Source: a virus
Strand: one strand, 5' to 3'
DNA length: 64,000 bases
IMG/VR virus record: IMGVR_UViG_3300022937_000009
Location: 37,437-101,436 of that record
Shown: piece after piece, positions 8 to 18,843 of the stretch
Layout of the letters: the number at the start of each line of letters is the position of its first letter
Position numbering within the stretch: the first letter of the stretch is position 1
Position numbers and translations under genes: made by a program
The notes under the pieces: model-generated
The model's input: the letters and a program-made list of their open reading frames with translations, nothing else
Told to the model about the DNA's origin: nothing
The model's database searches: none

Positions 8-466
8 CTATCTTACTCCTAATTCTTTTTCGGTCATAATCACAAATTCCCAACCTCTATCTGCACAAAATTGTCTTGCTGCTTTCCATTTTGCGTCATT
101 AACACCAAAAGCTTTAACTTCGTTAAGATACCTTCTTGAAATTCTTCCTGTTTTAGTATTATTTCTATTTTTTGGATCTGGTGGTAATGTTTGTTTATAT
201 GGTTTAATTTCAATCATAATAGTTTGTAGTTTACCATCAGGACTCTTTTTATGTACTATCACATCTGGAAAATATCTGTGTATCCTACTATCTATAGGTG
301 ATCTGTATGGAACAATTACTTCTTCTGATTGCCACCATATTGTATCAGGATGCTCATCAACAAATTTAAAGAACTTAAATTCCCATAAAGATCTATAAAT
401 TATGCGCGTCGGGTCTCCTTTGTACTTTGCAGGATTCTTTGGGCGAAATCTACCCTTATAAGCCAT
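8..466 (-). CDS. 4: gp4-like head completion protein (nuclease fold)
   Basis: The 152-aa product resembles T4 gp4 (also called gp50/4), which acts on filled heads before tail joining. Its N-terminus begins MAYKGRFRPKNP and continues through KGDPTRIIYRSLWEF and WWQSEE, all characteristic of the family. A PD-(D/E)xK-type nuclease core is readable: D68 in YFPD, then E86 and K88 in IEIKP, with E29 as a possible further acidic residue. An in-frame ATG 15 codons upstream exists, but the start at 466 is preferred. It has a GAGAAG ribosome-binding site six bases upstream and matches the family N-terminus. The gene is transcribed opposite to everything else in the window and has its own late-promoter box at 515-522. 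The stop codon lies at the window edge, so downstream context is unknown. Confidence 0.88.
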   Translation of the reverse strand: MAYKGRFRPKNPAKYKGDPTRIIYRSLWEFKFFKFVDEHPDTIWWQSEEVIVPYRSPIDSRIHRYFPDVIVHKKSPDGKLQTIMIEIKPYKQTLPPDPKNRNNTKTGRISRRYLNEVKAFGVNDAKWKAARQFCADRGWEFVIMTEKELGVR

Positions 467-487
467 AATATTCTTCTCACTACTCCA

Positions 488-495
488 TATAAATA
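488..495 (+). promoter_or_regulatory. T4-type late promoter box TATAAATA
   Basis: This is an exact match to the T4 late -10 element, 66 nt before the tail-tube-cap gene at 562. It lies inside the divergent gap between gene 4 and the baseplate operon. Confidence 0.7.
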
Positions 496-514
496 ATTGA
501 AAGATATCCAATGT

Positions 515-522
515 TATTTATT
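515..522 (-). promoter_or_regulatory. Late promoter box AATAAATA (minus strand)
   Basis: The plus strand reads TATTTATT, so the minus strand reads AATAAATA. The box is 48 nt before the gene 4 start at 466. It matches the NATAAATA form of the late box described for T4-like cyanophages. It lies to the right of the plus-strand box, so the two transcripts would overlap by about 20-30 bp. Confidence 0.5.
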
Positions 523-561
523 AAAACTATTGGAAAATAATTTTACGTAAAAGAGAATTCT

Positions 562-1707
562 ATGTCTAACAATATGCCAGAAATAGTGCGCTTCAGGCGC
601 TCCAATGATTCAAGGATAACAACCTTTTCGTTTCCTAGTAAACCATTGCCTCATGGATTTCAAATGATTTTCCAAGATTATTCTTATGAAAAATTTGCAG
701 CTTCTACTACAGCTTTAGGTACCACTACTACAAATAATGATGATGGTTCAACAACAAGTACAACACGATTTCAATCTAATAGAAATCTTGGACTAGTACC
801 AGAAAGAAATTCTGTAACAAATAGCAATACAGGCTCAATTGAACTTCCATTTCCTAGAACTTTAAGAGATAATACGGGTACACAAGTTACTGCATTTGAA
901 AGAGATTTCGTTGTTGAAAGAATAACTGCGGGCCTTGCTGGAGCAACAGGTGGTCAAGATATTGGCCAAGCAATGAAAAATATTGGTGAAATGGCAAGTC
1001 AAGCATTGAGTAGTGCGCTCGCGGCTGGTACAAACGCTGCACAAAATGGAATTGGTAATGCTTTTGCTGGTGCTATTTCTGATGCAATGAATGTTGACAC
1101 TGGTAAAGCAATGGCTATTGGTTCATATCTTGCACGAAAATATTTAAGTGGAGATCTTGCAAAAACTGCAGGTGCTGTTACTGGTCGTGTTGTTAATCCT
1201 CAACAAACATTAGCATTTGAAGGCGTTAACTTAAGAGAGTATTCTTTTGAATGGGATTTATTTCCAGCAAATAAAGCAGATACTGATCAAATTACAAATA
1301 TTGTAAACTTCTTAAAATCTAAAATGTTACCACGAACTGAAGGAATTGGAGGAGTTCAAGGATTAGATAAAGCATTTTTAAAATATCCTTCTGTTGTTGA
1401 ATGTAGCTTATTAGGTGTGCAAGAAAAACACTTCATGAGATTTAAAAGATGTATGATTGATAATGTAACAGTAGATTATACTGGCGGTGGTGCTAAAGTA
1501 GGAATTATTAAAGGTGGTGTACCAGCTTCTATTACGCTTAGTATATCATTTAAAGAACTTTCTATTCAAACTGCAGATGATTATGAACAATTATTGCCTT
1601 CTGGAGTTACAACAGCGTCAGCTGAAACTCCAAATGAAAGTGATTTTCAAGAAGTAGGTAACCCAGTACGACCAGCAACTACTTCAACAGGAACAGGAAA
1701 CCCATAA
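562..1707 (+). CDS. 48: Baseplate tail-tube cap (gp48-like)
   Basis: The 381-aa product is close in length to T4 gp48 (about 364 aa), the protein that caps the baseplate and nucleates tail-tube polymerisation. The N-terminal region contains SKPLPHGFQMIFQDYSY. The C-terminal half contains REYSFEWDLFPANK, followed by FLKYPSVVECSLLG and a final block with SITLSISFKELSIQT. This is the gp48/gp54 tail-tube-fold region. A low-complexity Ala/Gly-rich helical insert lies around residues 130-190, and the last ~30 residues are a disordered Thr/Pro tail. The start has an AAAGAG ribosome-binding site. The stop overlaps the next ATG (TAATG), which suggests coupled translation with gp53. T4 has two paralogues (gp48 and gp54); only one is seen here, and gp54 is the alternative name. 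Confidence 0.82.
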   Translation: MSNNMPEIVRFRRSNDSRITTFSFPSKPLPHGFQMIFQDYSYEKFAASTTALGTTTTNNDDGSTTSTTRFQSNRNLGLVPERNSVTNSNTGSIELPFPRTLRDNTGTQVTAFERDFVVERITAGLAGATGGQDIGQAMKNIGEMASQALSSALAAGTNAAQNGIGNAFAGAISDAMNVDTGKAMAIGSYLARKYLSGDLAKTAGAVTGRVVNPQQTLAFEGVNLREYSFEWDLFPANKADTDQITNIVNFLKSKMLPRTEGIGGVQGLDKAFLKYPSVVECSLLGVQEKHFMRFKRCMIDNVTVDYTGGGAKVGIIKGGVPASITLSISFKELSIQTADDYEQLLPSGVTTASAETPNESDFQEVGNPVRPATTSTGTGNP

Positions 1708-3766: not shown

Positions 3767-5694
3767 TGAGAGGAATGGGAATACGAAATCCAATGTTTTT
3801 CATTGGAGTAGTTGAAGATAATAATGATCCGTCATTCCAAGGTCGTGTGCGAGTACGTGCTTTTGGTGCACATGGAACACACCAAGAAGTAGCCACAACA
3901 GATTTGCCTTGGGCAATTTGTGTTAGTGGTGCTTATACTGCTGATGATCCTTTACCTCCTTTAAATGCTTTTGTGTTTGGTATGTTTTTAGATGGTGATG
4001 AAGCTCAGCATCCTCTTATTTTAGGAATGATTCCAACACAATATTATGATGAGATGGATCCAGAACGAGATGGTTATGGAGTTATTCCTTTAGAAAATGG
4101 CGATATTCTTGCAAAAGGTTTTACACCAGAAGATTTTGGTGAGCACCAAAGATCAAAATCTGGAAGAGCAGAACATATCGATGAAACATATCATAGAGAT
4201 GTAAGTATTAATGCCGTTCAAAATCAAAACATAGCTGGTAGTGATCAAACATGGTCTCAGCCTTCTTCAGCATATAATGCAAAATATCCATATAATAGAG
4301 TTATTGAAACAGCAAGACATCATATCGAATTAGATGATACACCTGGTGGTGAGCGCATTATGATTCATCATGATTCAGGTGCATTTATTCAAATTGATTC
4401 TCGCGGCACAGTTACAGAAAGAGCAGAAGCAGATAGATACGAAATTAATATTGGAACAAAACATGAATCTTCAGGACATCAAGTAGTTACTATTAATGGT
4501 AATGCGCATGTATATGTAAAAGGTAATAAAACCGAAGAGGTTATGGGAGATTATAAACTCTTAGTGCATGGTAACTCTGAATTTAATGTTGGTCAGAACT
4601 TGTTTATGACTTCTGGACAAAGTTTACAAGCAAGAGGTGCAACATTAAAACTCGAAGCAAACGCAGATGTAATGACGCTTTATGCAAAAGATGAAATTCA
4701 ATTTGAAGCAGATAAACAATTAAATTTTGTATCTGCAAATATTAAAAATACAGCATTAATGAATTATGATGTATATTCAAATAAGAGTATTAAATTTACA
4801 ACATTAAGAGATATTCATGCTCAGGCATCGAATATGGTATTAACAGCAACAGGTCTAATACCACCTTCACCTTTATCTGGATCAATTACAGGAACGCCTG
4901 GTTTTAGTTTAACAACACCATTTGTAAGTATATTATCAGCCAATGGAAGTTTCTCAGGATTATGGAATGCAGGAGTTGTTAATGCCGGTATTCTTACAGC
5001 AACAACTGGTAATATCGAAACTGCAAATATTAGTGCGTCAACAACATTAGTTGGAAACTTTGGAACAGTAAACACATCGATATTGGCTGCACCTCTACCC
5101 ATTAGTTCAGCACCAGGAAGTCCTTGCGCACCTGGACCTGGAAGACTGGTTGGTATATCTGCACCTTCTATTGCATTACCAACAATACCTTTATTAACAC
5201 CACCTACACAGAGTTTATTAGCTGTTCCGCCATTACCAGTTAATATATTCTCAGGATATGCATATCCATCACCTAATGGAAATATAGTTGATTTCTTTGC
5301 TGGTGTATTAACAAGTCCTTTCTCTGTAATAGGAATTCCAAACCCATTAACACAAGGTGGATATGGTATTGCAAGAGTTCAAATACCAGAACCTGTTAGT
5401 GCAGCTACAACAATACAACCAAAAGGTTATTTTGCAATGGGATATAATTCAGGTTGGTCGTCTCCTCCTGGCGATACTGCAAAATCAGATGGACAAAAAA
5501 GTTCAATATTATCTAATTTAACAAATCCTTTTGAGTCAATAGCAAGTATTGGAAATGACATAATAGAAGGATTAGATAATTTACTTAGCTTTAATTCAGA
5601 TGGTTCAGTACAAACTGGAAATACCGATACAATAACGGTTGATAGTGGTACTTCACAAACTGTCGATGCAAACGGAAATATCATAGAGGGATAA
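3766..5694 (+). CDS. 5: Baseplate spike protein gp5 without lysozyme domain
   Basis: This 642-aa spike protein starts with the gp5/VgrG OB-fold domain at about residues 1-110 (NPMFFIGVVEDNNDPSFQGRV through HPLILGMIPTQY). A linker leads directly into the segment that in T4 gp5 follows the lysozyme (about residues 170-235: RVIETARHHIELDDTPGGER, MIHHDSGAFIQIDSRGTV). It then enters a beta-helix-like repeat region (about 235-360; VTINGNAHVYVKGNK, EVMGDYKLLVHGNSEF). The T4 lysozyme insertion with its Glu-Asp-Thr active site is absent. The last ~280 residues are a Pro/Gly/Ser/Thr-rich region without a recognised fold. A wall-degrading function appears to be moved to the next gene, which ends in an M15 peptidase domain. 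Confidence 0.85.
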   Translation: MRGMGIRNPMFFIGVVEDNNDPSFQGRVRVRAFGAHGTHQEVATTDLPWAICVSGAYTADDPLPPLNAFVFGMFLDGDEAQHPLILGMIPTQYYDEMDPERDGYGVIPLENGDILAKGFTPEDFGEHQRSKSGRAEHIDETYHRDVSINAVQNQNIAGSDQTWSQPSSAYNAKYPYNRVIETARHHIELDDTPGGERIMIHHDSGAFIQIDSRGTVTERAEADRYEINIGTKHESSGHQVVTINGNAHVYVKGNKTEEVMGDYKLLVHGNSEFNVGQNLFMTSGQSLQARGATLKLEANADVMTLYAKDEIQFEADKQLNFVSANIKNTALMNYDVYSNKSIKFTTLRDIHAQASNMVLTATGLIPPSPLSGSITGTPGFSLTTPFVSILSANGSFSGLWNAGVVNAGILTATTGNIETANISASTTLVGNFGTVNTSILAAPLPISSAPGSPCAPGPGRLVGISAPSIALPTIPLLTPPTQSLLAVPPLPVNIFSGYAYPSPNGNIVDFFAGVLTSPFSVIGIPNPLTQGGYGIARVQIPEPVSAATTIQPKGYFAMGYNSGWSSPPGDTAKSDGQKSSILSNLTNPFESIASIGNDIIEGLDNLLSFNSDGSVQTGNTDTITVDSGTSQTVDANGNIIEG

Positions 5695-5695
5695 C

Positions 5696-7258
5696 ATGGC
5701 AGGGACTTGTGTAGACAATACAGATCAAACAGTAAGAAATAGATTATTATTATCTAATACTGGGCCTACGGTAAATTCCGAAGGTGCATATACTTTAAAC
5801 CAAATTGATGTATTTGCACAAGAACTTGCTGATAATATGCTTAAAGAAGCGGAAAATAATCCGATTCAAATTGCAGAAAATAAATTTGGTAATGCTTTCT
5901 ATGATTCAGTTAATTATTTAAATGGATCATTTCGTAATCGTATGCAAGGTGCTTTAGGAGATTTTCCTGATTTAGAAAAAAGATGGAACTCTGGTAATAT
6001 TACAAATTTAGAAGGTGCTGATTTTTTAAATGTTAAAAATTATACGCCTGATGGAATAGTCAATGAAAGAGATTATGTAAAACTTGCTCGAACACTCGAT
6101 GCATATTATAAAGATTCATTTGCGCAAAGTATCATGGGTGGCTTTTGTCAATCCATGCAAAATATCTTTCAACAAATAGAATCTTTCTATGATTTACTTG
6201 ATGAAGTCAATGCAATTATTGCTGATGCGATGGCATTTATTGATAAAATTCGTTCATATGACGGACTAACAGAGCTCACAGCACAACAGATTATAGACAA
6301 AATCATTAAAGAAATTAAAGATAAAATTCTAGAAGTTGTCGATAAAATTATACAAGAAGTTGAAGATGCTCTTTCTAATTTTGATATTGAAGCAATAGTA
6401 GGTGAAATCAAAGCAGGCCAAGCTAAAGGCGTTAAAGCAATAATGACAATTAAAGAACTTCAGTGTCAAAACTTTACAAAAGAAAATAAAGACCAACTTA
6501 AAAGAAAGTTATCTAATCTAATTGACTATGCGGTAAGTCTTTTTGAAAATCCAAATTTAGAACAAATCCAATTCATGGTGTTTAGATTCTGCGCATTAGC
6601 TGCAAATATAGAATTATTACTTAGAGATATTAAAAAACCAATGGACGATTATGGATTTAGATATTCGCGCATTGTTAATAGATTAAAAGCAATTTCAAAT
6701 GTTAATTCATCAACAGCTATAAGAAATGGAGGCATAAGGTTTTCAGAAGAAAAACGACAAGAATCCATAAATAGTTTAAGAGCGCTTTGGGAAGATGAAG
6801 GTAGAAGAAGAATTACTCCTACAGGAGAACAACCTGTTACTATTAAACCTATAACTGCTGCTGAATATAAAAACATTCCAAAATGTGGTCAAGTATATGA
6901 AGGAACACACGAATGGTTAAAAGTAGCACGTGGGGAAGATGATCCATTTCATAATGATAATGTCGGAATCAATGCCTATCTTAAAATTGATTTAGATGTA
7001 AAAGTATATCTGACAAGAATAAGAGATGATATAGGTGGAACATACGAAATTATTGATGGCTGGGTAAGTAAAGAATGGAATGAAGCACAAGAAAATGATC
7101 CAGATAACAGTCACTTGAGCGGTTTGGTTATAGATATTAAAAAGGACATGGATGATGTTAATGCATTCACTGAAGCTGCTTATAAACATGGTTTTAAAAC
7201 AGTTGTAGAATATGACGAGCATATTCATTTAGACTTAAGAGAGTTGCCAGTAGTATGA
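5696..7258 (+). CDS. Hub-associated protein with C-terminal M15-type peptidase domain
   Basis: The 520-aa product has two parts. Residues 1-~390 are mostly helical, with a strong coiled-coil run at about 160-240 (many Ile, Lys, Glu and Asp), and have no family I can name. Residues ~400-520 read as a DD-peptidase domain of the M15 (VanX/hedgehog-type) family. H473 and D480 in SHLSGLVIDI have the His-x6-Asp spacing of that family. E508 and H511 in DEHIHLDL give the ExxH general-base and metal-ligand pair. The zinc site is therefore complete. The likely role is cleavage of peptidoglycan cross-peptides during DNA injection, as a virion-borne substitute for the lysozyme missing from the neighbouring gp5. 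Its stop overlaps the gp25 start (ATGA). The catalytic call is from motif reading only. Confidence 0.75.
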   Translation: MAGTCVDNTDQTVRNRLLLSNTGPTVNSEGAYTLNQIDVFAQELADNMLKEAENNPIQIAENKFGNAFYDSVNYLNGSFRNRMQGALGDFPDLEKRWNSGNITNLEGADFLNVKNYTPDGIVNERDYVKLARTLDAYYKDSFAQSIMGGFCQSMQNIFQQIESFYDLLDEVNAIIADAMAFIDKIRSYDGLTELTAQQIIDKIIKEIKDKILEVVDKIIQEVEDALSNFDIEAIVGEIKAGQAKGVKAIMTIKELQCQNFTKENKDQLKRKLSNLIDYAVSLFENPNLEQIQFMVFRFCALAANIELLLRDIKKPMDDYGFRYSRIVNRLKAISNVNSSTAIRNGGIRFSEEKRQESINSLRALWEDEGRRRITPTGEQPVTIKPITAAEYKNIPKCGQVYEGTHEWLKVARGEDDPFHNDNVGINAYLKIDLDVKVYLTRIRDDIGGTYEIIDGWVSKEWNEAQENDPDNSHLSGLVIDIKKDMDDVNAFTEAAYKHGFKTVVEYDEHIHLDLRELPVV

Positions 7259-7671
7259 CAATAGATATTAAAACACCTGCTACTAAAAAGCAGAACTTAT
7301 ATTCAGATTTTAAGAAAGATCTGACTATTAGTCCTATCTCTAAAGACTTAGCGCTTATTAAAGATGAAGACGCCGTTAAAGAATCTATAAAAAATTTAGT
7401 ACTCACAGATCCTGGTGAAAGATTGATGCAACCATATATTGGTGGAGGCATAAGAGGTTTACTATTTGAAAATATTACACCAGGAACACTAAATCTTATT
7501 AAAAGCAGAGTAGAAACTACAATTAAAACTTATGAGCCTCGAGCTCAGTTAATTGATGTAACTGTAAGTTCAAGTATTGACGATAATAGAGTAGATGTAG
7601 TAATAAGATTTTATGTAAGAAATTCAGATATTCCAGTCACTTTGGATTTAATTTTAACAAGGATAAGGTAA
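7255..7671 (+). CDS. 25: Baseplate wedge subunit gp25
   Basis: The 138-aa product matches gp25 (132 aa in T4), the lysozyme-like-fold wedge protein also conserved in type VI secretion as TssE. It shows the expected block NLVLTDPGERLMQPYIGGGIRGLLFE, with an N-terminal SPISKDLALIKDEDAVKESI. The conserved EPR triplet is at residues 94-96 (YEPRA), followed by the final beta-strands IRFYVRN and LDLILTRI. It contacts gp6 in the inner baseplate ring, and gp6 follows one base later. The start overlaps the stop of the peptidase gene (ATGA), so the two are likely coupled. Confidence 0.92.
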   Translation: MTIDIKTPATKKQNLYSDFKKDLTISPISKDLALIKDEDAVKESIKNLVLTDPGERLMQPYIGGGIRGLLFENITPGTLNLIKSRVETTIKTYEPRAQLIDVTVSSSIDDNRVDVVIRFYVRNSDIPVTLDLILTRIR

Positions 7672-7672
7672 G

Positions 7673-9547
7673 ATGGCCAGCGTAAAAACACCTATAACAG
7701 AATTGGATTTCGATTCAATTAAAACACAACTGAGAACTTATCTCAGTACACAAACTCAATTTAAAGATTATAATTTTGAAGGTTCTAACCTCAGTGCATT
7801 TCTCGATGTTCTAGCATTTAATACTTTCCAAAATAACTTTTATACTAACATGGCTCTTAACGAAATGTTTCTTGACTCGGCCGTCTTAAAGAACTCAATC
7901 GTTTCTCATGCAAAAGAATTAAACTATATTCCAAGATCACGCAAAAGCGCAAGAGCAAAAGTTCGTGTAACAATTACAGATGAATATGAAACTGCATCAA
8001 CACTTACCATTCCTACATATTCAAATTTTACTTCAAACTTCCAAGGTGATTTATTTAATTTTGTAACAGATAAATCATACGTTGCAAGACGTACAGCACC
8101 TGGTGTTTATATTGCAGAAGACGTAGAAATTTTAGAAGGACAAATGCTTTCATCATTCCAAAGAGAAGGATTTATTGTTGATGAAGATGGCGTATTAAGA
8201 GTTCAACTTACAAATAATGAAGTTGATACGGATTCACTTGTTGTATTCGTCGACGCAGAAGCAACTGAAGACCAAAACGTATTTACAAGAGCAACAACCA
8301 TTTATGGTGTTAAAGCGACAGACCCAGTATTCTATTTAGAACCTTATCTTGATGATAGATACTCAATTTATTTTGGTAAAAATGAATTTGGTTTGCAGCC
8401 AGAAGAATACGAAGATGTTCGTGTAAGATATCGTATTTGTTCAGGTGCTGAAGCCAATGGTGCAAATAGTTTCTCAGCATCTTTTATTGATGGAGCTACA
8501 ATTAGTATTGAAACAATTGAAGCGGCACAGGGTGGTGAAGAAAGAGAAAGTATGGAATCAATTAGATACTTTGCTCCTAAAGCTTTACAAATTCAAGAAC
8601 GTGCAGTAACTAATAGTGATTATGAAGTTTTATTACAACAAGCATTCCCAGAAATTACTGCGGTATCTGCTTACGGTGGTGAAGAACTTGATCCGCCTCA
8701 ATACGGTAAAGTTGCGATATCAGTTTACATATCAGATAATACAACACTTATATCTTCTACGCTTGCGAATGCTTATATTAAATATCTTTCAGATAAAAGC
8801 CCATTAGGTATTGAACCATTCTTTGTTCAAACTAAATTCTATTATGCTGATATTACTGTAAATGCAACATATAGTAATAAATTAACAGATAAAAGTCCTG
8901 GTGAGCTTGAACAACTTATTAGAAACGCAATACAAACATATTCCGACGATAAGCTTGAAAACTTTAATAGAACATTAAGAGAATCTAAACTTTCAGGTAT
9001 AATCGATGATGTGGATTCTGGTATTCAAAGTAATGATATTGTTATTCAACCTATTATAGAATATTCACCTGTTGTTAATGTAGAAGCAGCTCCATCATTT
9101 AAATTTGAAACACCATTAATAAAGCCATACCCATATAGAGCAGCAAATGGTTTTTCAGATTTTAAACCAGCAGTTAAATCAAGTCCATTTGATATCGCAG
9201 GAGTTTGCGTTTATTTGTCTGATGATGGTGTAGGAAATATGATGACTGTCACAGATGACGCAACTAATCCACAGATTGTAAATCCGAAAGCCGGAGTAGT
9301 TGATTATAATACAGGTTTAATTAAACTTACAAACTTCGTTGTAGAATCTTATAACGGTTCTGGAATTAAAATTATGGTAAGACCTCGTAATGCTGATATT
9401 AAAGCACCACAAGGACGAGTGTTTATAATAAGAGATAACGATGTTGTTGTAAATATGACGTTAGAAGAAGAAACATCACCAAGCAATATTACTTCAAGTT
9501 CTACTATAGGCTCATTAAGCTCAGTCTCTAGTGGTGGAAGTTATTAA
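7673..9547 (+). CDS. 6: Baseplate wedge subunit gp6 (baseplate J-like)
   Basis: The 624-aa product corresponds to T4 gp6 (660 aa), which dimerises to form the continuous inner ring of the baseplate and is related to phage P2 gpJ. The N-terminus carries the gp6/J signature: FDSIKTQLRTYLSTQTQFKDY is followed by NFEGSNLSAFLDVLAFNTF and AKELNYIPRSRKSARA. The middle contains the J-like ring segment PKALQIQERAVTNSDYEVLL. The C-terminal ~200 residues form a beta-rich region ending in a Ser/Thr-rich tail. It starts with a good ribosome-binding site (AAGGATAAG) overlapping the gp25 end. Confidence 0.9.
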   Translation: MASVKTPITELDFDSIKTQLRTYLSTQTQFKDYNFEGSNLSAFLDVLAFNTFQNNFYTNMALNEMFLDSAVLKNSIVSHAKELNYIPRSRKSARAKVRVTITDEYETASTLTIPTYSNFTSNFQGDLFNFVTDKSYVARRTAPGVYIAEDVEILEGQMLSSFQREGFIVDEDGVLRVQLTNNEVDTDSLVVFVDAEATEDQNVFTRATTIYGVKATDPVFYLEPYLDDRYSIYFGKNEFGLQPEEYEDVRVRYRICSGAEANGANSFSASFIDGATISIETIEAAQGGEERESMESIRYFAPKALQIQERAVTNSDYEVLLQQAFPEITAVSAYGGEELDPPQYGKVAISVYISDNTTLISSTLANAYIKYLSDKSPLGIEPFFVQTKFYYADITVNATYSNKLTDKSPGELEQLIRNAIQTYSDDKLENFNRTLRESKLSGIIDDVDSGIQSNDIVIQPIIEYSPVVNVEAAPSFKFETPLIKPYPYRAANGFSDFKPAVKSSPFDIAGVCVYLSDDGVGNMMTVTDDATNPQIVNPKAGVVDYNTGLIKLTNFVVESYNGSGIKIMVRPRNADIKAPQGRVFIIRDNDVVVNMTLEEETSPSNITSSSTIGSLSSVSSGGSY

Positions 9548-9569: not shown

Positions 9570-11912
9570 ATGGATGTACAAAAGGATATAGCATTTTTTA
9601 TCAATCAGCAATTTCCTAATATCTATAGGGAAGATGGTCCTGAGCTTGTACAACTTGCTAGAGATTATTATAAATGGCTTGAGAGTGATTCAAAACAATC
9701 TCATTATAATTCGAGAAGAATGTTCGAATATAAAGATGTTGATACAACTCTTAAGTCAATGCTTATATTCTTTCAAAAGAAATATCTTGCAGACCTTAAA
9801 TTACAAACTAATGTAGTAAATATTCTCGTTAAAAATATTTTAGATCTTTATAGACGCAAAGGAACTCCCGCAGGTATAGAATTATTTTTCTCTATTTTTT
9901 ATAGAGAATATGATACTGATATTATCTATCCTGCTAAAAGGATGCTTAAAGTTTCTAACAGTGTTTGGAAACAAGGTATTTACTTACAAATGTTTCCTAA
10001 TGATAATTACTTTTTATCAAAAACCGATGTTGAATATACATACGCAGATTTAATATCACGTAATATTACAGGTTCAGCTTCAGAAGCAAAAGCTGCAGTT
10101 TCTAAAATTAACTTTATTATTTTAAATGGTATTAAAACACCTATCATTTATATCGATGAAGTTCAAGGACAATTTGAAAAATACGACGATATTTTTACAA
10201 ACATTAATGGTGAAGTTGTTTCATTTGGTAGAATAAATGGTTCGCTTAATGGGATTACAATTGATTTAGATAATGAAATAAGAGGGACAACAGGAAATAA
10301 AATTGGTGATAAGTATTCTCTTAATTCAGAATATGGAGCTGGCGGTGAAGTTATTGTTACTGGATTGCAAGATAAACTTACAGGACAAATTGAATATGAA
10401 TTAGAAAACGGTGGATATGGGTATAGTGTTAATACGACAAGACTTATTGTAAGTAATCAAACTCTTGTTTTAGATAATGAAGATTTAGAATTTACTCCGT
10501 ATGAAAGAATACAAGACACAGCAGGAACAGAAGGATATGTAGTTGGTCAAAGTACTAGCGCAATTGGTGTTTATGTAACAACAGGAACAAATTTTAGAGC
10601 TGATAGAGCAATTCAAACGCTCGACAGAAATCCAAATGTCTCTTTAACTTTTGATGTATACGGTGATTTAAATTCAAGTTCACCCGGCGCACTTTTTCCT
10701 GATACATCAAATCCTAATGATGTTATCGTAGAAGGTTTAACAAATACTTCTGTTGCATCTGTAATTACAGATCCTTTAGCACCATTTTTACCAACATTAA
10801 TTAATGCTCCTGATTATGAAGCTACTGCTCCTATGTCAGGTACTGCTTCACCAGTTAATTTATCAACAGCATTAGAAGATGCATTTGATATTCAAGATTT
10901 AACAATTGGTAAAATTACAGGATTCATTAATGTAAATCCTGGTGATGAGTATACAAATGACGTTTTTGCAAGAGTAAAAGACGATGTCTTTATTAACTTT
11001 GATAGAAGAAATCAAATATTAAGATTTACAGATCCAGGTGATGCTGGTGTTTTCAACTTAAATGAAATTATTACAGAAAAAACAACTGGTATACAAGGTG
11101 AAATAACAAAAACAAATACAGAACAAGGATGGATAAGTGTTATTCCATTTGATTATTATGGCTTCTCTGGATCTAATCCAATTATAAGAGCCAATGGCGA
11201 TGAAATTGATGTAATTGGTAAAGAAATTGATTATAACACAAGACCTCTTGGTGATAATGCAATAATGAATACTGAAACACAATTTGCAACAGGTAGAATT
11301 GCAACAGTAGGCATTGAAAATTCTGGTTTTGGTTATGTTGATGGAGCAGATGTACAAATCGTTGATTCAACTGGAGAAATTCAAGCGGTTGGAATAATTA
11401 GTGCGTCTTCACAGGGAAGAACATCAGGCTATTGGTCAGATTATAGTTCACACTTAAATGGTTATCAAAAAACATTAGCTGCCGATGGCGAAGATGTATA
11501 TTATCAATCTGGTCAAAGAGTACAAGACAGCGATTTTTATCAAGAGTATTCGTATCAAATTAAATCAACTCTTGATAAAAGTCAATATGAAAAATTATTA
11601 AAACAAAATGTTCACCTAGCTGGTTCAAAAATGTTTGGTGATTTTATTTACAAAACATTAGTTAACTTCAATACTAAACCAAGATTCTTGAGAATGTTTA
11701 ATGATGATGGATCAGGTTCACCATTAGATATTGCAAACTTAGTAGATTTAGAAGCATCTGTAACAAACTTTACTGTTGATTCAACAACAGTAACTGCAGA
11801 TCACGTTAACAATGGTGGGTGGACTGGTGTGGCTGGATCTGATCCCGAAACTATGGGTGTAAGTAATACAACTGGTAATTATCCAAGTACAACAACAATT
11901 ACGGTAACTTAA
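9570..11912 (+). CDS. 7: Baseplate wedge protein, gp7-like
   Basis: This 780-aa protein occupies the gene 7 position directly after gp6. Its N-terminal helical segment (FFINQQFPNIYREDGPELVQ, then DYYKWLESD and LYRRKGTPAGIELFFSIFYR) matches the wedge-initiator type found in marine T4-like phages. The remainder is beta-rich. Two short Gly/Tyr segments (YELENGGYGYSVNTTRLIVS and VGIENSGFGYVDGADVQIVD) look like copies of one repeat. Near the C-terminus is a charged helical region (DFYQEYSYQIKSTLDKSQYE). T4 gp7 is about 1032 aa, so this is a shorter version. The gp7 name depends on position and the N-terminal similarity. Confidence 0.68.
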   Translation: MDVQKDIAFFINQQFPNIYREDGPELVQLARDYYKWLESDSKQSHYNSRRMFEYKDVDTTLKSMLIFFQKKYLADLKLQTNVVNILVKNILDLYRRKGTPAGIELFFSIFYREYDTDIIYPAKRMLKVSNSVWKQGIYLQMFPNDNYFLSKTDVEYTYADLISRNITGSASEAKAAVSKINFIILNGIKTPIIYIDEVQGQFEKYDDIFTNINGEVVSFGRINGSLNGITIDLDNEIRGTTGNKIGDKYSLNSEYGAGGEVIVTGLQDKLTGQIEYELENGGYGYSVNTTRLIVSNQTLVLDNEDLEFTPYERIQDTAGTEGYVVGQSTSAIGVYVTTGTNFRADRAIQTLDRNPNVSLTFDVYGDLNSSSPGALFPDTSNPNDVIVEGLTNTSVASVITDPLAPFLPTLINAPDYEATAPMSGTASPVNLSTALEDAFDIQDLTIGKITGFINVNPGDEYTNDVFARVKDDVFINFDRRNQILRFTDPGDAGVFNLNEIITEKTTGIQGEITKTNTEQGWISVIPFDYYGFSGSNPIIRANGDEIDVIGKEIDYNTRPLGDNAIMNTETQFATGRIATVGIENSGFGYVDGADVQIVDSTGEIQAVGIISASSQGRTSGYWSDYSSHLNGYQKTLAADGEDVYYQSGQRVQDSDFYQEYSYQIKSTLDKSQYEKLLKQNVHLAGSKMFGDFIYKTLVNFNTKPRFLRMFNDDGSGSPLDIANLVDLEASVTNFTVDSTTVTADHVNNGGWTGVAGSDPETMGVSNTTGNYPSTTTITVT

Positions 11913-11913
11913 T

Positions 11914-12765
11914 ATGGCAGTAATGAGAATACAATCAGATGGAGATCCTTATCCAGCAAGAGCAGGAGTTACTGTATTAACTAATGATGGTACAACTGCT
12001 CGCGGTGGGTTTGGTGGTGGTAATACTATTTCAGATCAAACTCACGATTTTCAGTTTGAATATAGAGGTGGACAAAATACGTCTAATCCTCATTTGACAA
12101 CATTAGGAGCAATGGGTATCGCTAATAATGGTGTTGTATTATTTAATCCAAGTGCTGCACCTGGACCTTTACCAGGATCACAAATTCAACCACCTCAAGG
12201 TTTTACATATAATGCAGTATTTAATGAATCTGCGTATGGTGTAGATGCATGTGGTGGACATCCTGAGGAAAATGGTGAGTATCATTATCACTCAGGTTCA
12301 TTTTTAATCAACGGTTGGAATAACGCAAAATTTTATGGTTCAAATTCTTATTATAATGATAGCAATTATTCAGGAGATAATTTTAGACATCCTGACGGAC
12401 ACAGTAAAATATTAGGTTGGTGTTTTGATGGCTATCCTTTATATGGACCATACAGTTATGCGGATCCTGCAGATAATACAAGTTTAGTAAGACAAATGTT
12501 AAGTAGTTGGAGAACTCTTGCAACAGAAGCGACGGGTAGAGGATTTACATATGCTCAAGAACCGGCAGGAAGTTTTATAAACGATTATGAGTTTGTAGAT
12601 GGATTAGGAGATCTTGACGAATATAATGGAAGATACCTTGCGTCAACTCCTGATTATCCAACTGGAACTTACGCGTATTTTTTAACTTTTGCAAATGGTG
12701 ATTTTAATACACCGGCTTTCCCATATATTTTTGGGTTAAGTACAAGAGAACAACGCGGTGCATAA
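11914..12765 (+). CDS. YHYH-domain virion-associated protein
   Basis: The 283-aa product contains the two hallmarks of the YHYH family (Pfam YHYH type). One is the motif Y123-H-Y-H126 after CGGHPEENGE. The other is GWCFDGYPLYGP, with G173-P179. The family is of unknown biochemical function, but its conserved His, Cys and Asp residues suggest metal binding. In cellular genomes I associate it with secreted proteins in metal- or redox-related contexts. No signal peptide is seen. The gene starts two bases after the gp7-like gene and is followed by two genes that carry copper-type cupredoxin domains. This makes a virion metal-binding role plausible, though it remains inference. Confidence 0.75.
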   Translation: MAVMRIQSDGDPYPARAGVTVLTNDGTTARGGFGGGNTISDQTHDFQFEYRGGQNTSNPHLTTLGAMGIANNGVVLFNPSAAPGPLPGSQIQPPQGFTYNAVFNESAYGVDACGGHPEENGEYHYHSGSFLINGWNNAKFYGSNSYYNDSNYSGDNFRHPDGHSKILGWCFDGYPLYGPYSYADPADNTSLVRQMLSSWRTLATEATGRGFTYAQEPAGSFINDYEFVDGLGDLDEYNGRYLASTPDYPTGTYAYFLTFANGDFNTPAFPYIFGLSTREQRGA

Positions 12766-12768
12766 TCA

Positions 12769-12776
12769 AATAAATA
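12769..12776 (+). promoter_or_regulatory. Late promoter box AATAAATA
   Basis: This late-type box lies in the 38-bp gap, 27 nt before the start of the cupredoxin-containing tail protein gene at 12804. Confidence 0.5.
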
Positions 12777-12803
12777 TTAATTTAGAATTTTAGAGGAAAT
12801 GCT

Positions 12804-14483
12804 ATGGCCAAGCAAATAATTAATATCGGAGCATCAGCAAACGATGGATCAGGAGATCCAATACGTAATGCATTCGATAAAACAAACGATAACTTTAATG
12901 AATTATATTTCGCATTAGGTAGCGCTACTAACGCTACTTCAATGTTTAATGCTCAAGGAGAACTTGATTTTCCAGGAGCCTCTCATAAAATATCATTCTA
13001 TTATGATACAATAGCAGATCTTGAAGCTGTTGATGCGAGTACATATCATGGTGCAATAGGACACGCACATGATACTGGAAAACTTTATTATGCTCACAAC
13101 GGAGCATGGCAACAACTTGCGAATTATTCTGACATTAGTGGAATTTCGGTAACCTCAGCATTTACAACAATATCAGTTTCTGGCCAAAATGATATTGAAG
13201 CAGATTCAGCTGATGATACTCTAACATTCATTGCGGGTACTGGAATTCAAATTACAACTAGTGATACTAATGATTCTATTACTATTACTGCAACAGGCGG
13301 TGGTGGTAGTGGATCTTCAAGTTTTGTAGGTTTAAGTGATACACCAGGAACATTAGGTTCAGCTCTTCAATACGCAAGAGTAAATTCAGCAGGTAATGCT
13401 TTAGAATTTGCTACATTACCAACAATGTATTCTAATTCTGACGTTGACGCGCATCTAAATCAAAGTAATCCAACATCAGGCTATGTACTTTCTTGGAATG
13501 GTTCAGATTACGCTTGGGTAGCACAGTCAGGTGGTAGTGGTGGTTCGGTTGCTATGACTGACATTACTGATACGACAATTACAAATCCACAAAGTGGAGA
13601 TATTCTAAGTTATTTCCCAAATGATAGTACATGGAGAAACGTAACATTCACTCCATCTTTCGCAGATATAGACCAACAACCAGCAGATTCAGCTGATAAA
13701 GCGTTATTTGAAAATAGTTTCCGTAATGCAGCAACAGTATTAACAGTATCAGCAAATGGTACATCCGCATATCGTTTTGACCAATATGGAACAACAGACA
13801 ATCCAACTATTTACGTAAAAGCTGGTACAACTGTTGGATTTGATATGTCTTTCGATTCAGGTGGTACACACCCGCTTAAAATTCAAACAAGCGGTGGAGC
13901 AGATTATAATACAGGATTAGTTGCTTTACAAGAAGGTAACATATACGAAGAAGCTAATGCTCAAGGCACTTATTCAGGAACATTATTCTGGAAGATACCA
14001 GCATCAATTTCTGGCAATTACAAATATCAATGTGCATCACATTCGGGAATGACAGGAACAATCGTTGTTGAAGCTGCCGCAGGTGGTGGAGGCGGAGGCG
14101 GAAGTTCTGCTACACGTAATACAGAAACAGAAACAACGGCTTCAATTGCAGACGGTGCAGCAGGTAATGTTGCTTTTGCAGATATCGGTAAATCATATGT
14201 TTTATATGAAGTTACAACTGATAAAGCAGCATGGGTACGTATCTATGATGAAGTTGCATCAAGAACAGCTGATGCAAGTAGAACACAAGGTCAAGATCCG
14301 GCTGAAGGATCTGGTGTAATCGCAGAATTTATTACAGGTGGTGCAACCACTGTTAAAGTTACACCAGGCGTATTTGGCTGGGTAGGAAACAGTGAATCAA
14401 CTGTTCCAGTTTCAGTAACAAATTTAAGTGGTTCGACAGGAACCGTACAAGTAGATATAACAGCATTAACATTAGAGACTTAA
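12804..14483 (+). CDS. Tail/fibre protein with embedded cupredoxin domain
   Basis: The 559-aa product has at least four parts. The N-terminal module (NIGASANDGSGDPIRNAFDK then NDNFNELYFALG, residues ~6-40) is a common attachment segment of T4-like marine tail proteins. Next is a beta-rich region with a Gly-rich linker. Residues ~310-425 form a cupredoxin fold with a complete type-1 copper site: H356 (GGTHPL), C410, H413 and M416 (YQCASHSGM). The C-x2-H-x2-M spacing is that of amicyanin. A Gly-rich hinge (GGGGGGSS) leads to a C-terminal beta-domain. Copper-domain presence is seen in the sequence; actual metal binding is inferred. It follows a late-promoter box and is followed three bases later by the protease gene. 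Confidence 0.75.
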   Translation: MAKQIINIGASANDGSGDPIRNAFDKTNDNFNELYFALGSATNATSMFNAQGELDFPGASHKISFYYDTIADLEAVDASTYHGAIGHAHDTGKLYYAHNGAWQQLANYSDISGISVTSAFTTISVSGQNDIEADSADDTLTFIAGTGIQITTSDTNDSITITATGGGGSGSSSFVGLSDTPGTLGSALQYARVNSAGNALEFATLPTMYSNSDVDAHLNQSNPTSGYVLSWNGSDYAWVAQSGGSGGSVAMTDITDTTITNPQSGDILSYFPNDSTWRNVTFTPSFADIDQQPADSADKALFENSFRNAATVLTVSANGTSAYRFDQYGTTDNPTIYVKAGTTVGFDMSFDSGGTHPLKIQTSGGADYNTGLVALQEGNIYEEANAQGTYSGTLFWKIPASISGNYKYQCASHSGMTGTIVVEAAAGGGGGGGSSATRNTETETTASIADGAAGNVAFADIGKSYVLYEVTTDKAAWVRIYDEVASRTADASRTQGQDPAEGSGVIAEFITGGATTVKVTPGVFGWVGNSESTVPVSVTNLSGSTGTVQVDITALTLET

Positions 14484-14486
14484 TAG

Positions 14487-16916
14487 ATGGCAATCGACGA
14501 GTCATTAAAATTTTTACCACCAGAAGAACTTTATAGAGTTATTCCTCATGAAGCAGATTCTAATGGTAGAAAAAATCACTCAATCCGTTTAAGCGAAGGA
14601 ACCGACTGCGACGCTTTTTGTGAAGATTTAAATTCACAAGGATTTGAATGTATTGCTAATCCTAGCATGTTTCATAGAATATGTGTATTTAAATTTACCG
14701 AAGAAGAAGCGAATACTATTTCAGAAAGAGATGATGTTGTTAGTGTAAATGTCGAACAAGATAAAGTACTTTATAGTTATAACCCACAAAATCGTAACGG
14801 TAAAACGACTGTTGAAACATACTTCGACACTTCTTATCCTTCAAGTACTTTTGATGGAACTGATTTTATTCCAGCTAAATTTTTCTGGGATACAAATACA
14901 ACAGCACCAACACCAAATGGAAGGCCTTTAGGTTTCTTTAATAACGCTCAGTTTGGTGGTGGAACTCAAGAAGATACTTACGCATCAACAAATACGACTA
15001 TATCTCATAATTTTGATGGAAGCACTGTTGATATTGTTATTGTAGACCCTAGTGGTGGTGCTCTTGAACAGCCATCGTGGGCTCAAGCACATCCAGATTT
15101 CAAAGACGCATCTAATAATTTTAGATTTGTTGCTGTTGATTGGGGTGATTATGATGCGGGAGTAACCAACGTAAGAAATAATCAAGTCACAAATGGTTGG
15201 ACAGACTTTGGTACACACGCACTTGGATGTGCATCAGTTGCAGCAGGTACTTATTGTGGTTGGGCAAAAAACGCAAACCTTTATTATGCTGATGCGACTT
15301 ATGATAATGAATTATCAATTTATGCAGCAATTCTTGCATGGCATCAAGCAAAACCAGTTAACCCAGATACAGGTAAACGAAACGCTACTATCGTAAACAA
15401 TTCTTGGGGTTACGCTGATGATGTAAGAGCTGAGAATATTATACCTATCGAAGAAATTTCTTCTTTTAACGCATTTGATGATGATGGAAATCAAACAACA
15501 GTAACTAGACCAGGTGGTGGTTGGGGAAGTGATTACTCAGATTTCATAGACAACGGATTCAATGTTGTTAACACGACTGGTGCTAATGGAACTGATAAGT
15601 GGGGAATCGCAACTTTTCGTTCAAACTCTTCTAGGGATACTGTTTGGGATGCTGTTTTAAATTTCTTTAATGGTGTTAACGGGATTTATATGTTCTTCGC
15701 ATCTGGTAATTCTCCAGTTGTTTTTGCAAGAACAGACCAGCCTCAGTATAATAATCAAATCTTTATGGATTCAAATTATTTTTACTATGACTTAAACGAA
15801 TCCACTGGCAGTAATAAAGTTACTGCTACTGAAAACACTTATGCTCCTGTAACTGGTACAGAATATACTCATAGGTGTGAGTATCTCGGTAATCGCTATT
15901 CATTTTATGTTTCATCATATCAGTTTAGTACAACAAACCCATTAATGGAGCATTATCCCGCAAGAGGTCCAGCGATTGATGCAATAGGACAAGGAAGAGG
16001 TTCATGGTGTGCGACATCTGTTTATAATGTTAAAACTGACTCAAATGGATTTGAGTGGGGAACATTTTCTGGAACTTCAGCGGCATGTCCAAATGTGGTT
16101 GGTGCAGTCGCATTAATGCTTGATCATTATTATCATGGAGAAGGCGGAGCATCTTGGCCAAGTATCGCAGAATTAAGAACCATGATAAGAAGTACTTTCT
16201 CTCAACACCCTCTTCCATTAGTAGAAGATTTAGGAAAAGATCGTAGTGGTAATGCAGTAAGTAAAACAAGTTTTCCTGCAGCGGGCACAGAAATGTGGGG
16301 ACATAGATTACAAGGTAGCTACCTTGTAAACCAAACTATGACTCAACGCACACAGTTAACAGAAAGAGTACAAGATAGAAACAGTTATAACGATAACTGG
16401 GCAGTTTCTGTAGGAGCTAACGGAACTACGGCTTATACCTTTACAGGAACTGTTGGAGCAGAAACATTTAGTAGTACTAATGATCCAATATTAGTTATAA
16501 GAAAAGGTGATACACTCACTTTTAGTATTAATGCAACAGGACATCCTATGTATATTAAACAATACAAAGGAAGTGTAGTACAAGGTTCTGCTGATGCTTA
16601 TAATACTGGTGTAACAAATAATGGAACTCAATCAGGATTTATGATTTGGGCCACCGACACTGTACCTGCAGGGCTCTATTATTATATTTGTTCGAACCAC
16701 GCTGCAATGGCTAATTATATTGTTATATTAAGTGAAACTGAATATTATTATTCAGGCAGTGGAATTATGGGCACAACTCCAAACACAAGAGTTTGGTTAC
16801 CTTGGTCAATAAGAATGGGAACAGCAGGAAAAACAAAGCAACCAAGAAGTATAACTTATACTTCTAGACCAGCAACAGGACAAACATATCCTAGGCGGAA
16901 GATTAGAGTAGCTTAG
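14487..16916 (+). CDS. Subtilisin-like (S8) protease with C-terminal cupredoxin domain
   Basis: The 809-aa product begins with a ~95-aa segment shaped like an I9-type propeptide. A peptidase S8 domain follows with all active residues: D187 (VDIVIVDPS), H244 (FGTHALGCASVAAG), oxyanion-hole N408 (FASGNS) and S531 (SGTSAACPNVVGAVALML). After about residue 630 comes a cupredoxin domain with H686 (ATGHPMY) and C735, H738 and M741 (YICSNHAAM), the same ligand spacing as in the preceding gene. There is no secretion signal, so it would act as part of the virion or inside the infected cell. Possible roles are processing of structural proteins or digestion of host surface proteins at adsorption. The final ~60 residues are basic. 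A virion location is inferred from its position among baseplate genes. Confidence 0.82.
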   Translation: MAIDESLKFLPPEELYRVIPHEADSNGRKNHSIRLSEGTDCDAFCEDLNSQGFECIANPSMFHRICVFKFTEEEANTISERDDVVSVNVEQDKVLYSYNPQNRNGKTTVETYFDTSYPSSTFDGTDFIPAKFFWDTNTTAPTPNGRPLGFFNNAQFGGGTQEDTYASTNTTISHNFDGSTVDIVIVDPSGGALEQPSWAQAHPDFKDASNNFRFVAVDWGDYDAGVTNVRNNQVTNGWTDFGTHALGCASVAAGTYCGWAKNANLYYADATYDNELSIYAAILAWHQAKPVNPDTGKRNATIVNNSWGYADDVRAENIIPIEEISSFNAFDDDGNQTTVTRPGGGWGSDYSDFIDNGFNVVNTTGANGTDKWGIATFRSNSSRDTVWDAVLNFFNGVNGIYMFFASGNSPVVFARTDQPQYNNQIFMDSNYFYYDLNESTGSNKVTATENTYAPVTGTEYTHRCEYLGNRYSFYVSSYQFSTTNPLMEHYPARGPAIDAIGQGRGSWCATSVYNVKTDSNGFEWGTFSGTSAACPNVVGAVALMLDHYYHGEGGASWPSIAELRTMIRSTFSQHPLPLVEDLGKDRSGNAVSKTSFPAAGTEMWGHRLQGSYLVNQTMTQRTQLTERVQDRNSYNDNWAVSVGANGTTAYTFTGTVGAETFSSTNDPILVIRKGDTLTFSINATGHPMYIKQYKGSVVQGSADAYNTGVTNNGTQSGFMIWATDTVPAGLYYYICSNHAAMANYIVILSETEYYYSGSGIMGTTPNTRVWLPWSIRMGTAGKTKQPRSITYTSRPATGQTYPRRKIRVA

Positions 16917-16968: not shown

Positions 16969-18843
16969 ATGCCAGAAGTATTATCTAACAATTTTAAAAC
17001 GGATATCACAAGATTATTCATTGATGATATTAATAACAATGATTATTTCTTGTTTGTTTCCGCTATCGATTCTTTCGATCCAGTAGATTCTAAATTTTCT
17101 AAAAATGAATTTTTAGAAAGAACTTTGTTTGGCAAAAAAGTTGAAATCAATGATATTCATTTTATGATTAGATATCATCCTTGGCAGGTTGGTCAAGTGT
17201 ATGTTGAATATGATGATACAGTAGATTTAACAGATCAAAAATTCTATGCTGTTGTTGGACCTAACGATAATGAAACTGGTGATTATCGCGTTTATAAATG
17301 TTTGAATAATAATAATGGCGCAACAGTAACATCACCTCCTAATTATAATCCAACAACTACAAACCAAGTTTATGAAACAGCTGATGGGTACGTATGGAAA
17401 TATATGTATGTTATTAGTGAATTACAATTCGAAGCTTATAATGCTTTAGGTTATGTACCAATTATTGGAACTTTTAATACTAATCCAACTTTAGGTCAAG
17501 GATCAAAATTATCTGATATTGTTGTTACTAATCCATTAGACAATTCTGGATATGTTAAAGAAACGGGTGGATTAATTTCATCTCCATTTTATGATGGCAC
17601 TATGTTAGTAGATCCTTTTTCAACTTGGAGTCCTATTACAGGTTATTACGTTGGACAAAATATTTACACAGTAAATCCAAATGGCGTTGCAAATTTATTT
17701 GAAATACAATATTATTTTTATAATCAAAATACTGGTAACGCTGAAATACGAGTAGGTAATGAAAAAATTTATGGTAAAACACGAGGTGCAATAACTTTTG
17801 CAACTCAAGCAAATCCAGTTGTATGTACTTCAGTAGAACACGGGTTTGTAAATGGCCAATCAATTACATTTAGTAATGTCGTAGGAATGACAGAATTAAA
17901 TGGAAATAACTATTACGTACAAGTTTTATCTGCAGATACATTTGCCTTAAAGGCAGATAGAGGATTAAGTACAAATGTAGACGGTACTGGATTTACTGCA
18001 TATTCTAGTGGTGGAACATATATAACAGAAAGAGATGCAGTTGCTTCAGGTGTTGTTGGAAATGCTTCATTTAGTATTTTCCCAAGAGTAGATATTAAAG
18101 GAAATGGAAGAGGAGCAGTTGGTATTCCACAAATTCAAAATGGACAAATCACTTCAATCACTGTATTAAATCAAGGTAGTGGTTATGATAATATTACAGC
18201 AGAAGTTGTTGATCCAGCTTATGATTTTGATCCTGAAGATACAACAACTACTGACGTAAGAGCAGTCATAAGACCTCGTTTATCACCAGATGGTGGACAT
18301 ACATATAACGTATTAGAAGAATTTAGATGTAAGCATTTTAGTTTTTATGCTTATATTTCTGCCGATGATAATACTAGAATTGGAGATACAAATACTTATA
18401 CAGGTGTTGGAATTGTAAGATCACCAAGTTTTCATACATCAACACCAACAATTTTTGATAATAGAATTGCCATCACAACAGACGATATAGATAGATTAAC
18501 CGCAAATACAACAGTAACTCAATTAAATTCTGATAATGAAGTAGTTTTTTCTGCTAAAGTTCATGAAGTAGATGAAAGCGCGAATACGGCTTATTTAGCA
18601 GAATATATGGGTCCTTATGAAAGTAATCCAGACTCAGGAAATGGAGATACCTCTTTAGATTTAACATTACAACTTAGAAACGATACAGGTCAAACAATTA
18701 CTATAAATAGTCCAGTAGCATCTAATGTTGTATTTTCAAACTATGTTCAAAGAACAGGTGAGGTTTATTTCATGGAAGATTTCTTCCCATTAGCAAGAAC
18801 AGACCTATCAAGAGAAGAATTTAAGTTTGTATTGGAATTTTAA
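16969..18843 (+). CDS. 8: Baseplate wedge subunit gp8
   Basis: The 624-aa product matches T4 gp8 in its N-terminal half: the segment DYRVYKCLNNNNGATVTSPP, then ETADGYVWKYMYVIS, is the family signature. T4 gp8 is about 334 aa, so this one is almost twice as long. The added length is a central insertion of about residues 190-440. It includes a phage module with the pattern NPVVCTSVEHGFVNGQSI and GMTELNGNNYYVQVLSADTF, often seen in tail proteins. The C-terminus returns to gp8-like sequence (HVYNVLEEFRCKHFSFYAYI-type region, then VYFMEDFFPLARTDLSREEF). Its position next to other wedge genes supports the call. Confidence 0.8.
   Translation: MPEVLSNNFKTDITRLFIDDINNNDYFLFVSAIDSFDPVDSKFSKNEFLERTLFGKKVEINDIHFMIRYHPWQVGQVYVEYDDTVDLTDQKFYAVVGPNDNETGDYRVYKCLNNNNGATVTSPPNYNPTTTNQVYETADGYVWKYMYVISELQFEAYNALGYVPIIGTFNTNPTLGQGSKLSDIVVTNPLDNSGYVKETGGLISSPFYDGTMLVDPFSTWSPITGYYVGQNIYTVNPNGVANLFEIQYYFYNQNTGNAEIRVGNEKIYGKTRGAITFATQANPVVCTSVEHGFVNGQSITFSNVVGMTELNGNNYYVQVLSADTFALKADRGLSTNVDGTGFTAYSSGGTYITERDAVASGVVGNASFSIFPRVDIKGNGRGAVGIPQIQNGQITSITVLNQGSGYDNITAEVVDPAYDFDPEDTTTTDVRAVIRPRLSPDGGHTYNVLEEFRCKHFSFYAYISADDNTRIGDTNTYTGVGIVRSPSFHTSTPTIFDNRIAITTDDIDRLTANTTVTQLNSDNEVVFSAKVHEVDESANTAYLAEYMGPYESNPDSGNGDTSLDLTLQLRNDTGQTITINSPVASNVVFSNYVQRTGEVYFMEDFFPLARTDLSREEFKFVLEF

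Follow-up and report, generated by a model that had tools for sequence, protein, structure and literature searches.

Iron, zinc and calcium are known as metals of phage tails. Of the described components that come closest to the locus considered here, the YHYH domain (PF14240) is presented in PMC7824862 as a predicted Zn-dependent tail hydrolase, and PMC3037559 reports finding in virions of S-SM1 the protein of T4-GC969, whose gene lies upstream of gp9; the part of this protein that was examined contains a YHYH stretch. For the phage S-SCSM1, PMC9602691 gives 45 proteins found by mass spectrometry. Here we describe a window of 64,000 nucleotides (the whole stretch of DNA that was analysed), which is part of the 101,436-base virus record IMGVR_UViG_3300022937_000009 and in which three consecutive genes between positions 11,914 and 16,916 encode a YHYH-domain protein, a baseplate protein resembling gp9 and gp10 of phage T4 that bears a cupredoxin domain, and a pro-subtilisin of the S8 family that bears a second one. 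The cupredoxin and the S8 domain form a conserved pair, and our preferred, if tentative, explanation is that in marine T4-like viruses they make up a protease module which is carried on the baseplate, bears cupredoxins and acts on a host-surface protein. The domains are known ones, in a combination and setting for which no description was found in the open-licence PubMed Central literature, where we likewise found no description of cupredoxins in virions.

Cupredoxin domains with putative copper sites

The second gene of the three matches PHROG 677 (baseplate wedge tail fiber protein connector; E 1.1e-44), and residues 3-41 of its product match the N-terminus of T4 gp10 in the PDB (phmmer, E 8.8e-4); PF07880 reaches 23.1 bits, under its cut-off of 25. 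Since PF00127 scores 15.8 bits on the window cupredoxin (19.0 with the domain alone), below the cut-off of 21.2, the cupredoxin assignment rests on profile matches to the PDB and on the model of the copy in the third gene (domain 2). The profile, built from 16 copies, matched nitrite reductase 9cck (E 3e-6), plastocyanin 1b3i (E 3e-5) and amicyanins. The model of domain 2 has nine strands, and over residues 641-750 nine of the eleven ten-residue blocks have a predicted local distance difference test score (pLDDT) of at least 90, the others standing at 79 and 76. Foldseek returned nitrite reductase 2dv6 at E 7e-6, yet with a root-mean-square deviation (rmsd) of 7.1 over 134 columns and the aligned range not given, and the VIA-align list scarcely covers the cupredoxin part of the S8 model. 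Judged from the model, the beta-sandwich assignment holds for domain 2, and for domain 1, in the gp9/gp10-like protein, it is predicted by homology, the two copies being 31% identical (BLASTP E 3e-13). As to a cellular origin of the domain, one weak bacterial match was obtained.

Both window copies have the ligand order His...Cys-x2-His-x2-Met, and an earlier reading of this DNA from its letters alone (the sequence-only reading) was right that the second and third genes each hold a complete type-1 set, namely H356, C410, H413 and M416 in the one and H686, C735, H738 and M741 in the other; C410 is the sole Cys of the gp9/gp10-like protein. The ligands were followed through 203 viral copies, 139 of them distinct, from 254 loci and the window, with copies of fewer than 60 residues dropped. 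The profile used was seeded with ligand-bearing copies and so favours such copies, and ligand-free ones turned up nonetheless. At a median identity of 31% among the distinct copies, the four ligand columns rank fourth to seventh of 110 by conservation, after one Gly, one Pro and one Tyr; the chance of all four falling in the top seven is 6e-6 under a random draw of columns. The quartet reads HCHM in 123 of the 139 copies and HCHQ in two (stellacyanin is known to have Gln in fourth place), is incomplete in two truncated copies and is wholly or partly lost in 12. The complete sets noted in the sequence-only reading are conserved in relatives. Among copies below 50% identity, 31 of 41 keep all four ligands. 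The Cys and the second His are both kept in 125 copies and both lost in 10, with no mixed case (135 scorable; four gapped); since the copies are akin, the Fisher values for this pattern overstate its significance. It is this joint loss, together with the rank of the ligands among the most conserved columns at such low identity, that favours a copper-stabilised module, and copper loading of the cupredoxins seems probable on these sequence patterns.

A pro-subtilisin in the baseplate gene run

The third gene product matches PF00082 at E 5e-13 (49.4 bits, cut-off 21.8), and its AlphaFold model shows a subtilase core, preceded by a propeptide-like domain and followed at the C-terminus by an all-beta domain modelled with confidence, although mean pLDDT over the whole protein is 60.6 and 354 of its 809 residues fall below 50. 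Foldseek places the model among subtilases (E 1.6e-8). VIA-align superposes it on pro-subtilisin E 3whi_B (Z 23.1, rmsd 3.7, 306 residues, model range 27..577) and on PCSK9 5vla_A (Z 24.9, rmsd 3.0, 292 residues); the alignment to 3whi, which is unprocessed, begins at residue 27, inside the propeptide-like domain. The set D187, H244, S531 and oxyanion N408 is complete in the window protein, so that the catalytic residues that the sequence-only reading had pointed to are intact. We take D187 to be the catalytic acid from the canonical subtilase motif; D182, which is invariant, was dropped in favour of D187, to which the motif points. No substitution is seen at the catalytic His, the Ser or the oxyanion Asn among 99 non-redundant S8 relatives, and with Pfam alone PF00082 is found at E of 0.01 or less in 16 of the 20 relatives of alignment A1. 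This constraint on the catalytic residues and the propeptide-like domain are the grounds on which the protease part is favoured, and the enzyme is probably active.

A C-terminal motif, RP(T/S/A)xG...PRxx(I/V), recurs at many S8 C-termini, the count for its stricter form (Table 1) including near-copies. Among 115 distinct S8 tails, the 11 that have a cupredoxin at their end all lack the motif. The tail could possibly serve as a virion-docking tag.

Coupling of cupredoxin and protease

Related loci were taken from lists of the best 80 each; they share kinship and are hence non-independent, and de-duplicated counts are given where they were made. At gp9-type loci, the gene after the first cupredoxin open reading frame (ORF) carries S8 in 42 of the 45 testable cases (20 of 23 after de-duplication), these 45 being apart from 12 further loci cut off before the next gene. 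In the three exceptions the next gene lacks both domains (two cases) or carries another cupredoxin (one case). At loci drawn with the S8 profile, a cupredoxin is fused or adjacent in 57 of 79; some rows of the S8 query alignment held a cupredoxin, and the patterns scanned for were S8 motifs. When the non-redundant S8 proteins are pooled, with S8 regions of fewer than 300 residues left out, the cupredoxin is fused or adjacent in 68 of 99 (19 C-terminal, 13 inserted, 4 N-terminal and 32 adjacent), a pool that takes in loci drawn with the cupredoxin gene. Ten inserted cupredoxins, two of them from one contig, were mapped, and the point of entry in each aligns with residues 341-344 of the window protein, after the NNSWG strand (304-308) and ahead of N408. 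On a quick S8 tree, in which 26 of 96 inner branches are unsupported and the window's representative row sits on a long branch, at least 15 arrangement changes are needed to account for the distribution.

The YHYH gene behaves differently: loci drawn with it hold a cupredoxin in 12 of 80 cases and an S8 domain in seven of 80, and it is because of these counts that we regard it as loosely linked and dropped the trio as a fixed unit. Co-conservation of the three genes in relatives, which the sequence-only reading had proposed as a check, did not hold up; the conserved unit is the pair of cupredoxin and S8.

Cultured phages and the virion

Seventeen phage regions were examined, most of them chosen through protein matches to the window genes. 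All nine cupredoxin-bearing gp9/gp10-like proteins of cultured cyanophages keep an HP pair and CxxHxxM, most of these regions having been chosen via cupredoxin matches. In S-H9-1, ACG-2014e and S-CAM4 a subtilase has a cupredoxin at its end, and in P-SSM2 and S-SSM7 the subtilase gene adjoins a cupredoxin gene. Elsewhere the gene after gp9 is of another kind. In S-ShM2 (locus L092, 10959-14516) and S-SSM4 (locus L268, 6307-9768) it encodes a YHYH protein with a CxxHxxM cupredoxin between two YHYH stretches, although in S-ShM2 the HP pair is missing. The gene of P-SSM7, S-P4 and S-CAM8 has a CxxHxxM stretch that overlaps a YHYH match and a second, degenerate stretch that lies between YHYH stretches; in S-SM1 and S-RIM2 the sole cupredoxin stretch found was degenerate. 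From these arrangements, the cupredoxin has two kinds of partner, a subtilase in some phages and a YHYH domain in others. A protein with an HP and CxxHxxM cupredoxin was also seen in P-SCSP2 (locus L093, 6989-8302), a 37-kb cyanophage recorded under Autographiviridae; as this phage belongs to another family, the domain reaches beyond T4-like viruses.

The depositors of S-SCSM1 labelled its S8 (SSCSM1_228), cupredoxin (SSCSM1_231) and YHYH (SSCSM1_15) proteins as virion proteins. By hand count 48 genes of its records bear this label, among them the three proteins named as non-structural in PMC9602691, and predicted structural genes without it include SSCSM1_17, 209, 211, 215 and 245, among others. 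The label would thus appear to track the mass-spectrometry set without being identical with it. The labelling of these homologues lends indirect support to the presence of such proteins in virions and agrees with the virion role earlier proposed for the three genes, the step from label to mass spectrometry being presumed.

The YHYH protein

The first gene product scores 127.8 bits with PF14240 (cut-off 25), matches PHROG 2576 (no known function) at E 8.5e-109 and also matches four baseplate wedge or virion PHROGs and one other. Its family was aligned from matches of about 150-330 residues, 94 distinct rows being kept from 120 ORFs and joined by the query, so that the window protein may count twice among the 95 rows. 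The signature that had been read as marking a metal-linked gene is indeed present at residues 123-126 of the window protein, but the full motif occurs in 10 of the 95 rows, the query counted, and YGGE stands in its place in 43; H124 is found in 28 rows and H126 in 11. With YHYH in so few rows, the motif was dropped as a dependable metal signature in viruses. H163, S164, D172, D224, D235 and N238 are identical in all 95 rows, again with the query counted. A variable signature beside invariant H163, D172, D224 and D235 places the likely functional core of the domain around the latter residues, away from the signature.

The model of the protein (pLDDT 74.9; predicted template modelling score 0.78) has no significant fold match in the PDB, Foldseek giving two matches (best E 7.8) and VIA-align none of 11 chains at Z of at least 2; this absence is no demonstration of a new fold. 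Sequence and profile searches of PDB sequences gave no match. In the viral library, the matches were YHYH proteins of cyanophages and of two giant-virus records. Structure alignments A4 and A5 each comprised 26 hand-picked rows. The checks proposed earlier for the three proteins thus gave Pfam matches above the cut-off for PF14240 and PF00082, a sub-threshold PF00127 with the cupredoxin recognised through PDB profile matches, and predicted structures for the subtilase core and its all-beta C-terminal domain.

Genomic setting

The three ORFs, adjoining, all on the plus strand and each open throughout, lie in a T4-like baseplate gene run (Table 1), flanked by genes with baseplate wedge PHROGs, which supports the baseplate context given in the sequence-only reading. 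Pfam matches of the gp5-like spike gene upstream are under the cut-off; the short gene that follows it is presumably gp25-like, and the PHROG 219 gene we take to be gp6-like. The wedge protein downstream of the three also matches PF16190 (E1_FCCH, E 1.1e-10), a domain named from the ubiquitin-activating enzyme. Further along the window are a 1750-aa protein (36432-41684) that combines collagen-like repeats (PF01391, E 6.6e-80) with an S74 chaperone domain at its C-terminus, two further S74 proteins (24431-25771 and 48888-59210) and a 3379-aa protein (25811-35950) with pentapeptide repeats. No DNA-level match to phage records was found, nor any tRNA in the stretches scanned, and the top match of the DNA polymerase among those listed is cyanophage S-RIM12 (45.7%).

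Table 1. Coordinates in the window of the three genes, their domains and residues, and the neighbouring baseplate genes
Feature	Position	Strand	Basis
YHYH-domain protein, 283 aa	11914..12765	+	PF14240 E 6.7e-37, PHROG 2576
YHYH signature, residues 123-126	12280..12291	+	full motif in window protein
H163 to D172, invariant and likely functional core of YHYH domain	12400..12429	+	H163, S164, D172 in 95/95 rows
gp9/gp10-like baseplate protein with cupredoxin domain, 559 aa	12804..14483	+	PHROG 677, T4 gp10 match
Cupredoxin domain 1, residues 301-425	13704..14078	+	homology to domain 2, PDB profile match
Putative copper ligand His356	13869..13871	+	column H in 130/139 copies
Putative copper ligand loop C410-x2-H413-x2-M416	14031..14051	+	C 125, H 125, M 127 of 139
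Pro-subtilisin (S8) with C-terminal cupredoxin, 809 aa	14487..16916	+	PF00082, Foldseek, VIA-align
Propeptide-like domain, residues 21-90	14547..14756	+	model strand-helix-strand-strand-helix-strand, block pLDDT 75-91
Catalytic acid D187	15045..15047	+	canonical motif; D 59, E 33, gap 7 of 99 relatives
Catalytic H244	15216..15218	+	H in 98/99, gap in 1
Oxyanion N408	15708..15710	+	N in 99/99
Catalytic S531	16077..16079	+	S in 97/99, gap in 2
Cupredoxin domain 2, residues 636-760	16392..16766	+	putative ligands H686, C735, H738, M741
C-terminal tail RPATG...PRRKIR	16866..16907	+	S8 in 46/48 ORFs with stricter tail motif
gp5-like spike gene	3766-5694		Pfam matches under cut-off
Short gene	7255-7671		upstream in baseplate run
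Baseplate wedge gene	7673-9547		PHROG 219
Second wedge gene	9570-11912		PHROG 17744
Wedge gene after the three	16969-18843		PHROG 438; position is that of gp8 in cyanophages

Proposed function of the module

The fold assignments, the conserved ligands and catalytic residues and the genomic coupling are matters of observation, and onto them the preferred explanation fits a mechanism. The gp9/gp10-like protein would dock on the baseplate by its N-terminus and display a cupredoxin with a putative type-1 copper site. The pro-subtilisin from the neighbouring gene would be held inactive by its propeptide until assembly and would carry its own cupredoxin, here C-terminal. The cupredoxins would serve as beta-sandwich modules, stabilised by copper, in building and docking the outer part of the baseplate or the tail-fibre region, and the protease, once its propeptide is removed, would trim host-surface proteins near the receptor at adsorption. 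That the substrate lies at the host surface is a somewhat more doubtful part of this scheme than the scheme at large.

Several observations weigh against it. Ten cupredoxin copies lack both the Cys and the His; 31 of the 99 non-redundant S8 proteins are without a fused or adjacent cupredoxin, four of these being near a locus start; and S-H38 and S-CREM1 have gp9/gp10-like genes with no detected cupredoxin, yet the S8 gene is next. Moreover, Glu replaces the catalytic Asp in 33 of 92 scorable S8 relatives (for example at loci L037, L027 and L105). Degeneration would be expected to scatter residues, and since position 187 is strictly D or E, working enzymes that include a Glu-His-Ser subgroup are suggested.

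The alternative that ranks close to the preferred explanation, possible though less likely, is that of an assembly protease: as virions mature, the S8 enzyme would cleave its own chain and proteins of the tail fibre or baseplate, with the cupredoxins as passive scaffold. The propeptide architecture, the place of the gene within the baseplate run and the way S8 and cupredoxin stay together as their arrangement changes would all suit such a role; the virion label on the S-SCSM1 homologue of the S8 protein speaks against it, though a spent protease could remain in the particle.

A bolder extension, which we consider improbable, would make the virions of many marine T4-like viruses copper proteins, with many type-1 centres per baseplate coupled to a particle-borne subtilisin; proteolysis at the host surface, or the triggering of the baseplate, would then be gated by copper, through its capture, its release or its redox state. 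Of slightly lower standing is a redox or copper-sensing role, the idea of the sequence-only reading, in which the type-1 sites would take up copper or electrons at the host surface, or exchange them there, and so set off a baseplate change or oxidative damage. The ligand sets are complete and strongly constrained, and many sites per particle are likely if, as we infer, the baseplate proteins are multimeric; however, neither a redox partner nor a copper-handling gene was found among the proteins put through Pfam (part of the record's ORFs), the copper site could be purely structural, and ligand-free copies exist.

Ig-like modules shuffle among tail proteins. The cupredoxin domain is likewise shuffled among tail proteins and some copies have no ligands, so that one might view the domains as metal-free, Ig-like adhesion modules with vestigial ligands. 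The rank of the four ligands in the top seven of 110 columns and the strictly joint loss of Cys and His (none of 135 mixed) are hard to account for in a metal-free domain, and we reject this reading as quite unlikely. Rejected as the least credible of all is a host plastocyanin acquired as a photosynthesis gene: plastocyanins are among the PDB matches and cyanophages carry petE (PMC3037559), but the domain is embedded in polypeptides of the baseplate and the protease, petE is a gene of its own in S-SCSM1 (SSCSM1_151), and PF00124 (photosystem reaction-centre) has no match in the window's record or in 15 of 16 related ones, though any of these records may be incomplete.

Should the sites of the preferred baseplate-borne protease module prove to bind copper, blue-copper centres would be part of the infection machinery in a widespread group of ocean viruses, copper would join the metals of phage tails, and the copper chemistry of the sea would be linked to virus infectivity. 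Phage tails would also gain a new type of enzyme in the coupled protease. As cultured cyanophages with these domains exist, the question is open to direct test.

Comparison with known systems

The YHYH protein agrees with PF14240 in family and in its link to the tail or baseplate, and the window copy keeps the signature, whereas most of the viral rows aligned are without the signature histidines; a solved fold was not found. The gp9/gp10-like protein appears to resemble T4 gp9 and gp10 and the cyanophage 'gp9' (T4-GC398) in its N-terminus and shares their place in the gene order before gp8. It differs from the T4 proteins in its added cupredoxin domain; the cyanophage gp9 genes bear the same domain, which the annotations examined do not name. 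With the S8 subtilases (pro-subtilisin, PCSK9 and proteinase K) the third protein shares propeptide-like and catalytic domains, D/E-H-S and the oxyanion Asn, but the viral enzymes are encoded among baseplate genes, carry a fused or inserted cupredoxin and have Glu in place of Asp in 33 of 92 scorable relatives. The all-beta fold and the order His...Cys-x2-His-x2-Met are common to the viral domain and the plastocyanin- and amicyanin-type cupredoxins (PF00127), and we take the viral ligand loop to be of the length found in amicyanin. In contrast to those cupredoxins, the viral domain falls under the Pfam cut-off, its first His is followed by Pro, and it is a module within baseplate and protease proteins.

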